A stretch of 64,000 nt of DNA, taken from positions 310,001-374,000 of the forward strand of contig NZ_JACHIR010000001.1 in the NCBI RefSeq assembly GCF_014203355.1, in the 5' to 3' direction. The notes beneath the pieces were generated by a model. The model searched no databases, was not told the origin of the DNA, and saw only the letters and a list, made by a program, of their open reading frames with translations. Below, piece by piece: positions 3,692 through 9,654 of this stretch. A program made the position numbers and the translations under genes. The stretch comes from Kutzneria kofuensis. GTDB lineage: Bacteria > Actinomycetota > Actinomycetes > Mycobacteriales > Pseudonocardiaceae. The number at the start of each line of letters is the position of its first letter. The stretch's first letter is position 1.

Positions 3692-4110
3692 GCGACGCGG
3701 AACTCGACGAGTTCCTCGCGGCGGAACGCACGTGCCGGGTCGCGACGGCCGGCCCGGACGGCCCGCACCTCACCGCGCTGTGGTTTCTCTGGCACGACAA
3801 GACCCTGTGGCTCACGTCGATCACCCGGGCCAAGCGGTGGGCGCAGCTCAAGCGCGATCCGAAAGTTTCAGTTCTGGTCGACGCCGGCCAGGAATACGGC
3901 GAGCTGCGCGGCGCGGAACTGCGCGGCGAAGTCGAGTTCGTCGGCGAGGCGCCGCGCACCGGCGAACCCGTGCCTGAGCTGGTCGAACCGGAGAAGTTGT
4001 TCGCCCGCAAGTACTTCGGCGGCGACGTGATGCACCACGACGGGCGGCACGCGTGGTTGCGGCTGCGGCCGCACACCGTAGTCTCCTGGGACTTCCGCAA
4101 ACTCGGGTAA
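3655..4110 (+). CDS. Pyridoxamine 5'-phosphate oxidase-fold flavin/F420-binding protein
   Basis: A 151-residue split-barrel protein (PNPOx-like). The segment TCRVATAGPDGPHLTALWF (about residues 26-44) followed by KRDPKVSVLVDAG is the usual core of this family, whose actinobacterial members use FMN or F420. The GTG at 3655 has GGAGG seven bases upstream. An ATG at 3688 overlapping the ipdC stop as ATGA is the alternative start, but it lacks a ribosome site and would remove the RGRRIAMS lead-in that related proteins keep. It overlaps the ipdC end and probably belongs to the same transcript. The substrate is unknown. Confidence 0.8.
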   Translation: MAEQRRGRRIAMSDAELDEFLAAERTCRVATAGPDGPHLTALWFLWHDKTLWLTSITRAKRWAQLKRDPKVSVLVDAGQEYGELRGAELRGEVEFVGEAPRTGEPVPELVEPEKLFARKYFGGDVMHHDGRHAWLRLRPHTVVSWDFRKLG

Positions 4111-4217
4111 AGGGTCGGAAAAGGTACCGACGATCGTCGGGTGCCGTCCGCGCTCACACGGGGCTAGCTTTCGGTTACGCACGACTGTCCCTGCCAGTCG
4201 CCGAAAGGTGTACACCC

Positions 4218-4925
4218 ATGCGTAAGTCTCTTGTCGCGGCAACCATCGCCGGCGCCGCTCTCGCCGCCGGTCTGGCCGCGGCACCGGCCCAGGCCGACGT
4301 CAGCCCCAACATCATCGGGGGCGGCGCGGCCAGCAACATTCCCTACGGCGCCCAGATCTACTGGACCAACGCGGGCTCCGGCAACGGCTTCGAGTGCTCC
4401 GGCACGATCATCGCGCCGCAGTGGGTGCTGACCGCGCGCCACTGCCAGAACAACCCCGGCATGTACGTCCTGGTCGGCAGCCTGAACCTGGGCCAGGGCA
4501 CGCGCGCCACCGTGGACCGCCAGGTGCCGTCCCCCAACGGCGACATCCTGTTGGTGCACCTGACCACCGCCATCAACACCACGTACAGCCGGCTCGGCAG
4601 CGCGGACCCGGCGGTCGGCTCCACCAACCAGATCTACGGCTGGGGCCGCACCCAGGGCAGCAACCCGCCGTCCCCGGTGCTGAAGGTCGCCAACGTGCGG
4701 GTCACCGGCACCAGCTCCGACGCGTTCGGCGGCCGGGCCATCGCCAGCGTCGGCATCAACGGCGCCGCCTGGCACGGCGACTCGGGCGGCCCCGAGGTGT
4801 CCAACGGCGTACAGGTCGGCGTCTGCTCGACCGGCAACAACAGCGGCTCCAACCCCCAGGGCACGCAGAACTACGCCAGCGTCGCCTCGAGCCGCTCGTT
4901 CATCCGCAGCACCGCGGGGGTCTGA
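4218..4925 (+). CDS. Secreted trypsin-like serine protease (S1), copy A
   Basis: A 235-residue exported protease with a Sec signal peptide (MRKSLVAATIAGAALAAGLA, cut near AQA at about 25-27), a short pro-segment and an activation-type IIGG at 32-35. The catalytic triad is His75 (TARHC in place of the usual TAAHC), Asp109 (GDILLVHL) and Ser189 (GDSGGP); Cys60 and Cys76 would form the His-loop disulfide. The ATG at 4218 was chosen because it begins the signal peptide. The next gene is a close paralogue whose start overlaps this stop. Likely an extracellular nutritional protease. Confidence 0.9.
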   Translation: MRKSLVAATIAGAALAAGLAAAPAQADVSPNIIGGGAASNIPYGAQIYWTNAGSGNGFECSGTIIAPQWVLTARHCQNNPGMYVLVGSLNLGQGTRATVDRQVPSPNGDILLVHLTTAINTTYSRLGSADPAVGSTNQIYGWGRTQGSNPPSPVLKVANVRVTGTSSDAFGGRAIASVGINGAAWHGDSGGPEVSNGVQVGVCSTGNNSGSNPQGTQNYASVASSRSFIRSTAGV

Positions 4926-5635
4926 TGCGCGGCACCGTGGTGGCGGCCGCACTCGTCGGCGCGGCCCTGGTGGCCGCGCCGGCGGCGCCGGCCTCGGCGT
5001 CGTCGGCGAGTCCGAACATCATCGGCGGCACGCAGGTGAGTTCGGCCCCGTGGGGCGCGCAGATCTACTGGAACAGCGGCGGCAGCGAGTTCGATGGATT
5101 CGAGTGCTCCGGGACGATCATCGCGGCGCAGTGGGTGGTCACGGCGCATCACTGCCAGAGCAGCTCCGGGATGCACGTCAAGATCGGTGACGTGCGATTC
5201 GACCAGGGCACGAATGTGGCCGTGGACCGCCAGTACACGTCCCCGAACGGCGACATCGCCTTGCTGCACCTGGCTTCCGCCGTGCAGACCACGTACATGA
5301 AGCTGGGGACGGCCGATCCGCCCACCGGATCCACCAACCAGATCTACGGTTGGGGTCGGACGCTGAACCAGAGCCCGCCGGCGTCGATCCTGCGGACGGC
5401 CGACGTACGGGTGACCGGGCGGAGCGTCGACGCCTACGGCGGGCGGGCCATCGCCAGCCAGGGCATCAACGGCGCCGCCTGGCACGGGGATTCCGGTGGG
5501 CCCGAGGTGTACAACGGCGTCGAAGTGGGCGTCGCGTCGACCGCCGGGAACAGCGGGTCGAACACGCACGGGACGCAGAACTACGCCAGCATCGCGGCCA
5601 GTCGGAGTTGGATTCGGTCGACCGCCGGGGTGTGA
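4925..5635 (+). CDS. Secreted trypsin-like serine protease (S1), copy B
   Basis: A 236-residue paralogue of the upstream protease, from a tandem duplication. It has its own signal peptide (VVAAALVGAALVAAPAAPAS, cut near SAS), IIGG at 32-35 and the triad His76 (TAHHC), Asp110 (GDIALLHL) and Ser190 (GDSGGP). The stop of copy A and the start of copy B share one base (TGATG), so translation is coupled. The two differ most near the signal peptide and in surface loops, while blocks such as TNQIYGWGRT and INGAAWHGDSGGPEV are almost identical. Confidence 0.9.
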   Translation: MRGTVVAAALVGAALVAAPAAPASASSASPNIIGGTQVSSAPWGAQIYWNSGGSEFDGFECSGTIIAAQWVVTAHHCQSSSGMHVKIGDVRFDQGTNVAVDRQYTSPNGDIALLHLASAVQTTYMKLGTADPPTGSTNQIYGWGRTLNQSPPASILRTADVRVTGRSVDAYGGRAIASQGINGAAWHGDSGGPEVYNGVEVGVASTAGNSGSNTHGTQNYASIAASRSWIRSTAGV

Positions 5636-5682: not shown

Positions 5683-5723
5683 GTGGTTGGGCGGGTTGGA
5701 GGCGGGTTTTTGCGGTGGGGGTC

Positions 5724-5843
5724 GCGTGGATTTTGTGTGGAGCCTCTGGACGATGGCCTACGAGGGGCAATTCCGGGGCAGGCTCCGCCTGCCCCTCGCG
5801 CGGACAGCTTAGGCCATCGTCCACCTCCACACAAAATCCACGC
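5724..5843. repeat. 120-bp palindromic element, copy 1
   Basis: A nested palindrome. The outer arms 5724-5742 and 5825-5843 are 19 bp and perfectly complementary; a second arm pair is GGACGATGGCCTA (5748-5760) with TAGGCCATCGTCC (5810-5822); the centre is a hairpin of GGGGCAGG with CCTGCCCC around 5774-5794. The same 120-bp unit recurs in inverted orientation right of the HNH gene (7196-7230 joined to 9482-9566). It has no coding potential and looks like a REP/MITE-type element or the end of a larger HNH-carrying mobile unit. Confidence 0.9.
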
Positions 5844-5953
5844 TCGGGTATTGAGTGGCGTCTGCGAGGCGAGGGGATGCGGGCGTGATTGTGTGCGAAC
5901 AGTCGGCGGGTACGCGATTATGCATGGAACAATCACCCGTTAGTGATTCGAGT

Positions 5954-5969
5954 TCGATCATGTGTGCGA
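5954..5969. promoter_or_regulatory. SOS (LexA)-like box upstream of the HNH gene
   Basis: The 16-mer TCGATCATGTGTGCGA matches 10 of 12 fixed positions of the actinobacterial LexA box TCGAACnnnnGTTCGA. It ends just before the -10 hexamer, where repressor would block RNA polymerase. Several mycobacterial 13E12/DUF222 genes are LexA-controlled, which makes this site credible. Confidence 0.5.
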
Positions 5970-5970
5970 G

Positions 5971-5976
5971 TATTCT
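5971..5976 (+). promoter_or_regulatory. -10 element of a leaderless promoter for the HNH gene
   Basis: TATTCT lies 6 bp before the ATG at 5983, the spacing expected when transcription starts at the start codon. No Shine-Dalgarno is present. TTCGAG at 5947-5952 could be the -35 (18-bp spacer). Confidence 0.45.
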
Positions 5977-5982
5977 GGACAC

Positions 5983-7126
5983 ATGGAAGAACTCACCCGT
6001 GAACTAGAGAATCAGGAACCGAGTGGGGACCTGTTCGATATGATCATGGGTGTGGACTGGGCCAGGCTGGACACCGACCAACTGGTGACGGTGTCCATCC
6101 TCGCCCGGAAGATCAAGGCCTTTGCCGAGTGGGTCGAACTGGCCGCACTGCGCCGGGTCGAGGACATCACCGAGTTGGCGATGGCCCTCACCGAGCCGGA
6201 GCAGACCGTGGCCCGGAGGAAGGAAGCCAGCGAAGTCCTGGAGACGCTACCTCGGTTGGCCGAGCTGCTACGGCGCGGCGAGTTGGACTTCCGCCGGCTG
6301 GACGCCGTGCGGGAACGGGTCCAGCACCTGTCCCCCGACCTGGTCACCCAGGTTGAAGATGCCCTGGTCGAGGTGGCGGCCGGGTTGAACCGGACCCAGC
6401 TGTGCCGCAAGACCACCGCCCTGGTCGCCCAGGCCGACCCCGAGGGCTACGAGCAGCGCTGCCACAAGGCCACCAAGAACCGCCGGGTCGAATTCTCCCC
6501 ACTACCCGACGGCATGGCCAAGCTGACCTGGATCCTGCCCGCCACCGACGCCCACGTGGTGTTCCAGCAGCTCTGCAAAGACGCCCGATCCCTGCCCACC
6601 GACGACCGCACCACCGATCAGAAGCGGTCGGATGTCCTGCTCGACCGGTTGCGGGGCACGTCTCGGGACTGGAACGTCCGAACCTTCGTCACCATCTCCA
6701 TGGAAACCCTGATGGGCCTGACCAACGACCCCGGCCACCTCGCCGGCTACGGACCCATCGCCGCCGACACCGCCCGCTCCCTGGCCATGCACGGCCCCTG
6801 GCGCGGCATCCTGCTCGACCAGTACCGCCACGCCACCGCCATCACCACCGACACCTACCGCCCCACCGCGTTGATGAAGGAATTCGGCCACGTCCAGGCA
6901 GGCGGCACCTGCACCGCCCCCGGCTGCGCCAGCCCCATCCAGGAATACGACCACATCACCCCCCTGGCCAGCTGGCCATACCGAGCCCGCCAATCTTCAG
7001 GGCCTCTGCCGGTGGCACCACCACCGCAAACACGACAACTACACCGTCACCCGCGATTCCGACGGCACTTCACACTGGACCACCCCGAACGGCCGCCACT
7101 ACACAACCAGCCCCACCAAATACTGA
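5983..7126 (+). pseudogene. DUF222/HNH endonuclease (13E12-type), frameshifted in the HNH domain
   Basis: A DUF222 domain fills most of the protein (about residues 20-300) and an HNH nuclease domain should end it. The frame from the leaderless ATG at 5983 runs through CTAPGCASPIQEYDHITPLA, giving the zinc-type cysteines and the first His, and then goes out of frame near 6966-6980, continuing to a stop at 7143. The expected HNH tail, HTEPANLQGLCRWHHHRKH, is intact in the +1 frame and ends at the TGA at 7124-7126. A single-base indel has therefore removed the Asn and second His of the nuclease site. It is either a real pseudogene or a sequence error. Inverted palindromes flank the gene. Confidence 0.85.
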
Positions 7127-7195
7127 CCGCCCCTGTTCTTTGACAACTCCACAGCGACCGACAACCGCCAACCCATCACCCTAAACAATGCACTT

Positions 7196-7230
7196 GGGCC
7201 GATTTTGTGTGGAGGTGGACGATGGCCTAA
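7196..7230. repeat. Palindromic element copy 2, left fragment
   Basis: The first 35 bp of a second copy of the 120-bp palindrome, inverted relative to copy 1. It breaks off at the TAA at 7228-7230, where the IS5-family element begins. Joined to 9482-9566 it rebuilds a 120-bp unit that differs from copy 1 by very few core bases, plus the outer tips. Confidence 0.88.
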
Positions 7231-8106
7231 GAGCTCGTCTCACGTGGATCTTGCTCGGCCGCTGCCATGATCAGACGTTGTGACGGATGCGTTGTCGCAG
7301 CGGCTGGTGCCCGACGAGTTGTGGGCACTGGTCGCGCCGTTGGTCCCACAGTTCACGCCGCGTCGGCAGGGCGGTGGGACGACGCCGGTGGACGACCGGG
7401 CGGTGTTCACCGCGATCGTGTTCGTGTTGACCAGCGGCTGCGCCTGGCGGCATCTACCGCCGTCGTTCGGGGTCACAGTGCCGACCGCGCACCGCAGGTT
7501 CACCGAGTGGACCAAAGCGGGCCTGTGGCCACGGGTGCATCGGGCGGTCTTGGACGAGTTGGGCGGCCAGGGCTTGATCGATTGGTCGCGGGTGGTGGTG
7601 GACGCGGCGGCGGTGCGGGCGAAAAAGGGGGATCGTTGACCGGTCCGAGCCCGGTCGATCGAGGCAAGCCGGGCTCGAAGATCCACGCGCTGTCCGACCG
7701 GGCCGGTCTGCCGTTGTCGGTGGCGGTGTCGGCGGCCAACACCAACGACGCCTACGGGCTCAAACCGTTGGTGCGGGCGATCCCCGCAGTGAAGTCGCGG
7801 CGTGGTCCCCGTCGGCGCAAGCCGGCGAAGTTGCACGCGGACAAGGCCTACGACATCAAGGAGTTACGGGCGTGGGTACGCGAGCAGGGGATCGCGGTGC
7901 GGATCGCCCGCAAAGACACTGAGTCCAGCGCGCGGCTGGGTCGGCACCGGTGGGTCATCGAACGCACGATCGCCTGGTTGTTCGGGTACCGCCGACTCGC
8001 GATGCGGTACGAGCGCAAGGCGAACCACTTCTGCGCGTTCCTGACGTTGGCGGCGGCCTTGACTTGCTTCAAGAGGCTCGCCAAGGCCGCCACGTAAGAC
8101 ACCCTC
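7231..8106 (+). mobile_element. IS5-family insertion sequence (IS427-like), 876 bp
   Basis: Bounded by 17-bp imperfect terminal inverted repeats (GAGCTCGTCTCACGTGG at the left; GAGGGTGTCTTACGTGG as the reverse complement of the right end; 13 of 17 match) and by a 3-bp target duplication TAA (7228-7230 and 8107-8109). The target was the centre-left of the palindromic repeat. It carries one transposase in two overlapping frames. Confidence 0.88.
7280..8097 (+). CDS. IS5-family DDE transposase, two frames joined by -1 frameshift
   Basis: The first frame starts at the GTG at 7280 (MTDALSQRLVPDELWALVAP) and ends at 7639; the second takes over about 7620 and ends at the TAA at 8095-8097 inside the right inverted repeat. 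They overlap at AAAAAGGGGG (about 7622-7631), a slippery run suited to programmed -1 frameshifting, which is common in this IS group. Catalytic residues of the DDE site lie in VVVDAAAVRAKKG (frame 1), HADKAYD and VIERTIAWLFGYRRL (frame 2). Both halves look intact, so the element may be active. Confidence 0.85.
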
Positions 8107-9424
8107 TAATACGACAACGACAGGTCGTGATGTTGTCTCCGGTGGTGGCTAGCTCGGGCACGGGCCTGGCTAACCAACCGCCACCGTGACCAGTGCAGGA
8201 TGTGATCGACGGTGTGGGCGGAACGGACCACGACCCGGTTCCATAACCGGCGAACCTCGTTGACCGACAACGGGATCACGGTCTGACCATCGCCAGCAAC
8301 GGAGCCCCCTTTTCAACGGTTGGCCGTGTGATCACCAGGAACGCCAACGCCGTCATCGACAGCGTGACGTGCCGGTACCACGCCTGGTAACCCCGCGCCT
8401 GGTAGTGATCCAGACCGGTCTCGTTCTTCGCCGTCTGGAAACACTCCTCGATCGCCCAGCGGCTGCCCGCGACACGAACCAGCTCCGCCAAGCTGGTATC
8501 GGCAGGCCCGAAACACACGTAGTAGGCGATGTCGGTCGGATCGCTGACCGAACGCCGAGCCAGCAGCCAGTGCCCCCAACCCCGCCGGCGCAACGGCCGG
8601 ATCTCCACCGCCGTCCAGTCCGACACCCGAGGGCCACGAACTCCGTCCCCGCAGCTGAGCCGCTGCCAATCTGCGTCCGCGACGTCCGCAATCATCCGCG
8701 CAACCCGGACCTTGGCCAAGTGCATCGACACCACCATCGCCGACTTGGGCACCGCCACCACATGCGGGACGTCCACGGTCTCCAACCACAGCCGGAACTT
8801 CGTGTCCTGCCCGTACAACTCGTCGGCGGTCACCCATCCGAACGGCACCTCCGTCGCGAGCGCACGCTCGATCATCCGGCGGGCCAGCACCTGTTTGGTC
8901 GCGAACTCCACCTCGTCATCAATGCCAGCCGCCCGGCACCGGTCACGATCATCGGTCCAGTCCTTGGGCAGATACAACTCCCGATCAATCAGCGCACGAC
9001 CGCGTGGTGAGGCATACGCCAGAAATACCCCGATCTGCGAGTTCTCGATCCGGCCGGCAGTGCCCGAGTACTGCCGTGCGACTCCTGCGGAGTGGGCACC
9101 CTTCTTCAGAAAGCCGGTCTCGTCGACGATGAGCACCCCCTGCTCACCGTCACCGATGCGTTCCACAACCGCGGCACGCACGTCGTCACGCAAGCCATCG
9201 GTGTCCCACGCGTAGAAGTTCAGCAACCGCTGCATGCCTTCCGGCCCCGCATCCCCGGCGGCCTCGGCCAGCGTCCACCCGTTCTTCCGCTCGATCTCGG
9301 CGAGCAATCCCTTGACATACCAGCGCATCCGGCGCCGCGACTCCACTCGGGGGAACCTGCCGGCGAACCGGCCCAGAAACGCCTCGAAGCTCGCCGACCA
9401 GTCCGCCACCATCTCCGCCAACAC
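8106..9424 (-). pseudogene. IS701-family transposase, C-terminus in a shifted frame
   Basis: A DDE transposase of the IS701 family beginning at the GTG at 9424 (or the ATG at 9412). The catalytic motifs are visible: VDETGFLKKG, TADELYG and EECFQTAKNETGLDHY. The frame stops at 8276 after LLAMVRP, but the family's usual C-terminal tail (VIPLSVNEVRRLW and about 45 more residues) continues in the -1 frame down to 8106. The switch point is a homopolymer pair (five G then four A on this strand's complement, 8305-8313). The extended frame takes its stop codon TAG from the CTAA target duplication. A one-base indel, a sequence error or programmed frameshifting could each explain it. Confidence 0.8.
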
Positions 9425-9477
9425 AACAAGATCAACTACCAGAGTCCGGACCTAGATTACAACCTGTCGTTGTCGTA
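8110..9477 (-). mobile_element. IS701-family insertion sequence, 1368 bp
   Basis: Both ends carry the same 15-bp terminal inverted repeat, TACGACAACGACAGG (8110-8124, and as reverse complement 9463-9477), with further similarity inward. A 4-bp target duplication CTAA flanks it (8106-8109 and 9478-9481), the size and type expected for IS701. Its target was made by the end of the IS5 element (C) plus the IS5 target duplicate (TAA), so it arrived after the IS5 element. Confidence 0.92.
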
Positions 9478-9481
9478 CTAA

Positions 9482-9566
9482 GCTCTCCGCGCGAGGGGCA
9501 GGCGGAGCCTGCCCCGGAAATGCCCCTCGTAGGCCATCGTCCAGAGGCTCCACACAAAATCGGCCC
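9482..9566. repeat. Palindromic element copy 2, right fragment
   Basis: The last 85 bp of copy 2, continuing from GCTCTCCGCGCGAGG to the outer arm CTCCACACAAAATCGGCCC (9548-9566), which pairs perfectly with GGGCCGATTTTGTGTGGAG at 7196-7214. It is separated from its left part by 2.25 kb of IS DNA. Confidence 0.88.
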
Positions 9567-9654
9567 ACCCGCCACGACTAATCTCCACCCCAACCCCCCA
9601 TCCACCATCCGAGACGCCCGGCATCCCGCCGCCTCACGTACGACAATGGTCTCC

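Follow-up and report, generated by a model that had tools for sequence, protein, structure and literature searches.

A DUF222-HNH nuclease gene between inverted palindromes in Kutzneria resembles an undescribed kind of mobile element

Genes that join a DUF222 domain to an HNH motif are described as the multicopy HNH/DUF222 repeats of the REP13E12 or 13E12 family (PMC10589994, in the part of its text available). The accessible part of PMC13061034 reports frequent gene conversion, with 87 events at REP13E12 loci in its DUF222/HNH category, and says that these regions 'lack defined biological function'. Other systems invite comparison: the REPIN/RAYT and IS200/IS605 systems, free-standing HNH homing endonucleases, and DDE insertion sequences (IS). 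The locus compared with them here lies in a window of 64,000 nucleotides, C1:310001-374000 of the 10.4-Mb genome (G000) of Kutzneria, a soil bacterium, where a DUF222-HNH nuclease gene sits between two inverted copies of a large structured palindrome. The literature found on DUF222/13E12 repeats and HNH elements, in which subscription journals are thinly covered, has no description of such palindromic ends. This holds for mycobacterial REP13E12 too, which was compared by description only. The whole looks like an undescribed kind of mobile element.

A preliminary description of the window had reported both palindromes, inverted and with a DUF222 gene between them, and this was confirmed: in a search of the whole genome the right-hand piece (C1:319478-319561) aligned to the left palindrome at E = 1.1e-34, so that their likeness is not a matter of chance. 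The HNH endonuclease gene it had named is indeed a DUF222-HNH gene, but the window copy has a frameshift near residue 329, within its HNH part, which had been missed; other copies are intact. DUF222 matches occur at 19 places in G000, and 17 of these (L002 to L018) are bracketed by inverted palindromes, L001 and L019 being the two that are not. All 34 palindrome ends found in the genome (17 A and 17 B, with two B ends split, L008 and L016, and one partial, L005) are paired around the 17 DUF222/HNH genes. Searches with both palindrome subtypes, covering the best 40 of 49 candidates and 40 of 40, found no solo or gene-less palindrome in G000, and the spread of the palindrome without DUF222/HNH genes that the preliminary description had allowed for was not seen there. 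REPs scatter as solo copies, and the element differs from RAYT/REPIN systems in having none. Its ends are also longer, at 120 bp against the 20-40 bp given for REPs in the abstract of PMC3733652. A solo REP or miniature inverted-repeat transposable element (MITE) family was rejected as the identity of the palindrome for want of any solo copy in G000.

The unit has nearly constant boundaries. It ends on both sides in a structured palindrome of about 110-120 bp, one inverted relative to the other, with short feet just outside, GGTCGCGTG at A ends and GGCCCACC(C) at most B ends, beyond which the flanks diverge; foot to foot, GGTCGCGTG...GGCCCACC, the length is about 1.6 kb. In the window the conserved unit spans 5720-9569, extending 9 and 8 bp beyond the palindromes. 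Flank identity among the G000 copies is 0.87-0.96 over the first 10 bp and drops to 0.36-0.54 over the following 20, and in G002 and G004 it declines over 50-100 bp. A sharp case is the pair L017 and L018: their sequences agree at 97.8% over a stretch of 1565 bp that starts about 10 bp beyond palindrome A and stops 8 bp beyond palindrome B, and their flanks are unrelated. The reading frame is broken at the same place in both, so it was an already defective copy that was duplicated, which suggests action in trans. Apparent flipped copies reflect contig orientation, and inversion of the gene inside the unit was rejected. The two smaller contigs, C2 and C3 (688 and 604 kb), carry 6 of the 17 units (L008, L009, L013, L015, L017, L018), which is 6 in 1.3 Mb against 11 on the 8.7-Mb contig.

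Related genomes contain related units, mostly at differing sites. Counting G000, five of the seven genomes of the genus have the palindrome; with the G001 to G004 loci picked through palindrome matches among those listed, 67 of 69 oriented loci have a DUF222 match, the exceptions being L170, at a contig end, and L171, which is decayed. A reading frame for the protein tree was obtained from 62 of the 69, and both palindromes were recognised in 50. Flank similarity places five sites in several genomes (L012/L079/L168, L013/L088, L014/L078/L172, L016/L142 and L082/L156/L174), while most element sites are not common to different genomes. Joined flanks of 8 and a further 4 sites were searched against the genus genomes, and five sites (the window, L014, L092, L150 and L144) are empty in relatives. 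G002 and G005 are empty at the window site, where G004 and G006 carry other sequence and G001 an element on the left-hand side; G003, where the site is a run of 100 N, was left out of the count. L014 is empty in G004, L150 in G002, L092 in G000, G006 and, with another spacer, G003, and L144 in G001 and, with another spacer, G000; the six empty loci of the last three sites (L150, L092 and L144) contain no palindrome or DUF222 match. At the L004 and L011 sites relatives lack the element and carry 0.45-3.4 kb of other sequence, and G004 has other sequence at the L012 site; the flank search gave no usable pair for L002 and L083 and only two separate G005 matches for L017. Syntenic flanks with no empty sites, the other outcome that the preliminary description had named, were thus not what was found. 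Over 50 copies, and for offsets of 0-3 bp outwards only, no target duplication rises above chance (own mean 0.16 bp against 0.23 bp shuffled). L144 (G004 C1:810392-812123) adjoins a Ku gene (C1:812500-813042), and its site is the one empty in G000 and G001.

With many copies at mostly different sites, near-constant boundaries, empty sites, a duplicated frameshifted copy, and selection on both the nuclease and the pairing of the ends, the unit is mobile, and the copy in the window, though itself damaged, probably belongs to an element of about 1.6 kb that is otherwise autonomous. The discrete unit without a transposase of its own that the preliminary description proposed stands as far as the boundaries and the empty sites go, but the interval also holds two unrelated insertion sequences with transposases, which it had overlooked. 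In its one gene, its inverted ends and its length of about 1.6 kb, the element is like a DDE insertion sequence; it differs in that its gene has no DDE domain (only DUF222 and HNH were found, the DDE genes in the interval belonging to the two inserted IS), that its ends are large palindromes, and that no target duplication is seen. With REPIN/RAYT and IS200/IS605 it has in common a gene beside inverted, extragenic, hairpin-forming ends that fold with unpaired bases, but those systems use a Y1 (HUH) transposase, of which the seven genus genomes contain no full-length example and only a 33-position fragment in one; movement by a Y1 enzyme was rejected on that ground. A lone HNH gene, no transposase and signs of gene conversion recall a free-standing homing endonuclease, which would not be expected to have 17 sites with different flanks in one genome, instead of one homing site, or large palindromes at both ends. 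The element therefore lacks the hallmarks that were tested for Y1 elements, DDE elements and homing genes, and works partly like each.

The fold of the ends was examined on 24 of 97 distinct palindromes, picked to span the types in five genomes, against a hand-drawn structure of 41 pairs. In the left palindrome of the window an outer stem of 19 bp is followed by an asymmetric bulge, with CCTC facing C, then by a middle stem, and at the centre by a GC-rich hairpin. Paired cells make up 96.0%, a percentage biased towards the structure because this was drawn from the same sequences, and slid controls pair at 40-46%. Both partners have changed at 13 of the 41 pairs among the 24 palindromes, and doubly changed cells number 84 where shuffling gives a mean of 27.4, a pattern from which the pairing appears to be maintained by double changes. 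The inverted 120-bp ends carry invariant bulge letters. Palindromes might merely terminate transcription or act as insulators on either side of a nuclease gene that is repeated but otherwise ordinary, and 18 of 46 sites do lie between convergent genes, on a rough composition-based gene call, where terminators are expected; yet 9 of the 46 lie between divergent genes, the duplication of L017 and L018 stops at the feet with unrelated flanks, empty sites fall between intact neighbours, and terminators would not explain inverted ends with fixed bulge letters. The discrete boundaries already contradict that explanation, which we regard as barely credible.

The protein has the DUF222 domain and the HNH motif that define the DUF222/13E12 repeat family. 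In three intact proteins Pfam DUF222 scores above its cut-off in all, Pfam HNH appears in one only and below threshold, and PHROG HNH families are matched by all three; the HNH residues are conserved in the alignment of 62 rows. NCBIfam gives no match in the three proteins, and a PADLOC match of one of them to Csx19 (2e-5) was judged to be chance and that identity rejected. Structure prediction on two rows reached a mean predicted local distance difference test (pLDDT) score of 38.4, and the two matches among solved structures are not credible (best E = 0.041). Searches elsewhere gave no match in viral contigs, one plasmid record at 28% identity, six phage records at 30-40% identity over parts of the protein, and one locus in a wider collection of genome contigs. 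Median ratios of non-synonymous to synonymous substitution (dN/dS) among paralogues are 0.18 in G000a, 0.16 in G000b, 0.20 in G001, 0.08 in G002 and 0.24 in G004, with median dS of 0.22-0.56 across these groups, from which L016, L093, L158, L162 and L176 were left out; by this measure the nuclease genes are under purifying selection.

We think it probable, if by no means secure, that this is a nuclease-driven element, spread and homogenised by cutting together with host repair. The nuclease would recognise the ends, probably extruded as hairpins or as a cruciform with their conserved asymmetric bulges, and would cut at or near the base of the folded ends. Joining would be left to host repair: end joining could insert the element at new sites with no target duplicated, and recombination among copies could convert ends and genes, so that copies in the same genome stay alike. 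Ku is found in six of the seven genus genomes (G000 to G005, not in G006), which lends host end joining little support because G005 has Ku but not the palindrome. Another possibility is that an unrelated host transposase or recombinase mobilises the unit in trans, with the HNH protein as a passenger, be it regulator, stabiliser or defence nuclease. HNH enzymes are not known for strand transfer, active IS elements are present in the genome, and the duplicated frameshifted copy means that the enzyme acted in trans, all of which such a mover would accommodate. Yet the genus genomes have no full-length Y1 transposase (other transposase families were not searched for), G000 has no solo or gene-less pair of the sort that non-autonomous elements leave, and its two palindrome subtypes, of 6 and 11 copies, match two protein clades (with 6 and 9 members in the tree, from which L017 and L018 were left out), a match that a protein reading its ends would be expected to produce; exceptions are the B ends of L008 and L011, which resemble the other subtype. 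We consider a mover in trans rather unlikely.

That copies are alike within genomes is seen from the protein tree, in which the rows of G004 (22), G002 (16) and G001 (7) are each set apart by one branch and G000 forms two groups; the two G003 rows are not grouped. Copies at the same site in different genomes have identities of 0.51-0.71, inside the range of all pairs between those genomes, and the nearest same-genome copy of such a member stands at 0.92-0.97, or 0.67 in G003. In G002 the palindromes are 0.98-1.00 alike among copies as against 0.89-0.95 for gene segments, and in G004, as well as at L008 and L011 of G000, subfamilies seem to have exchanged end types. Together with the conversion events described for REP13E12 loci in the available text of PMC13061034, the likeness within genomes fits conversion between copies. 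The element might be a homing-type cassette whose new sites are rare and old and which at present undergoes only cut-started gene conversion between existing copies, with no transposition. The clustering of same-site copies by genome, the swapped end types and the frequent conversion of REP13E12 loci (PMC13061034, as above) would all suit it, but L017 and L018 have nearly identical bodies in unrelated flanks, most sites are not common to genomes, and five are empty in relatives, and we hold it to be improbable.

The sequence just outside the ends may bear on how repair of this kind would proceed. In 50 copies, G and T make up 78% of the 60 bp adjoining each end, counted on the strand that runs towards the element, compared with 54% and 56% at 200-400 bp. 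RecA prefers G/T-rich strands; after breaks, such tails, whose bias at both ends is on the strand that runs to the element, would give RecA favourable 3' single strands. The tails are loosely alike within a genome, with own pairs no closer than others, and are not common to L017 and L018, so they do not move as a constant component of the unit; for L092, about 30 bp of the left and about 60 bp of the right tail are missing at the empty sites. A pre-existing repeated target was rejected as their explanation, given that the 12 weak extra tail matches in G002 (E up to 1e-5) all adjoin element copies and that own-pair tails are no closer.

Outside the group that has this palindrome, the same layout occurs in G013, from another genus of the family, where all five DUF222 loci examined sit between inverted ends (matches of 205-364 bp). 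These ends hold a palindrome of about 135 bp whose sequence is unrelated to that of Kutzneria, and it recurs beside DUF222 genes in the pairs compared (best 40 of 51 candidates); the G013 proteins have no match to the Kutzneria proteins at E 1e-5. We lean slightly towards a new class of bacterial element, in which a single DUF222-HNH nuclease recognises the folded palindromes flanking its own gene and spreads by cutting them while host repair pastes and homogenises the copies, and which at least two very distant DUF222 lineages would share, with unrelated palindrome sequences. In G012 a palindrome of 55 bp precedes the gene at five of five loci and also follows it at one of them.

Several points weigh against this proposal and the mechanism behind it. 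In G006, 14 of 22 palindrome matches lie 0.3-1.3 kb upstream of 13 DUF222 matches, among those listed, in the same orientation, with no placement possible for the remaining 8; in the cases compared the palindrome is upstream only. A bracketing pair was found in none of five loci examined in G014, and 28 of 29 loci in a family-wide search have none in the stretch examined, the bracketed one being L194, of G013. The tie between palindrome and DUF222/HNH gene that the preliminary description drew thus holds in G000 (17 of 17 pairs) but fails as a general rule, with 2 of 19 loci unbracketed even there; most DUF222 loci of the family being without a pair, the domain needs no such ends. In the fold comparison further pair types do not exceed shuffles (23 against 23.3), and template switching between arms can also produce double changes in DNA palindromes, although the kept asymmetric bulges would argue for selection on the fold. 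Two same-site pairs rank high and retain some likeness (L014/L172 6 of 30, L013/L088 8 of 240), and repeated re-insertion at favoured sites, not conversion, could explain the likeness within genomes. To our knowledge, HNH nucleases do not join DNA. Long degenerate repeats lie between or around the palindrome and the DUF222 gene, upstream of the gene, at L208-L212 of G006.

DUF222 genes occur in 25 of 40 family genomes, several with at least 43 matches, yet the domain is still named as being of unknown function. An element with defined ends makes that function testable, through the structure that is bound, the position of the cut, and whether an HNH enzyme with host repair suffices for mobility, and it would also give a reason why DUF222/REP13E12 loci undergo gene conversion so often.

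Table 1. Parts of the window locus, in window positions
Feature	Position	Strand	Remarks
A-end foot GGTCGCGTG	5720..5728	+	outer edge of the conserved unit; common to G000 A ends with few changes; L017/L018 homology stops there
A-end structured palindrome	5724..5843	+	perfect arms of 19 bp; pairing apparently kept through double changes, five genomes
DUF222-HNH nuclease gene, frameshifted in HNH part	5983..7143	+	Pfam DUF222 8e-16; alignment to intact copies ends at about residue 329
B-end palindrome, first piece	7196..7230	-	inverted copy of the A-end palindrome
IS5-family element inside B palindrome, foreign to the unit	7231..8106	+	DUF4096 and DDE_Tnp_1 in two frames; TAA on both sides
IS701-like element inside B palindrome, foreign to the unit	8110..9477	-	DDE_5 transposase; terminal inverted repeats; CTAA on both sides
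B-end palindrome, second piece	9482..9566	-	inverted copy of the A-end palindrome, E 1.1e-34
B-end foot GGCCCACC	9562..9569	-	outer edge of the conserved unit; common to most B ends; L017/L018 homology stops there

The B palindrome of the window was probably split at CTAA by the IS701-like element first and entered by the IS5-family element second, an order suggested by the way in which the duplications are nested. Nine full-length, near-identical copies of the IS701-like element are present in the G000 genome. Such elements or their relatives lie in or beside the B palindromes of 4 of the 17 units (L016, L008, L010, L007), at window 7231-9477 and at G000 C2:634315-635252, C1:7380551-7381488 and C1:7207091-7208028, as if the palindromes attracted them. 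On the other side, the unit is preceded by two neighbouring trypsin-like reading frames of similar sequence, at window 4053-4925 and 4394-5635.

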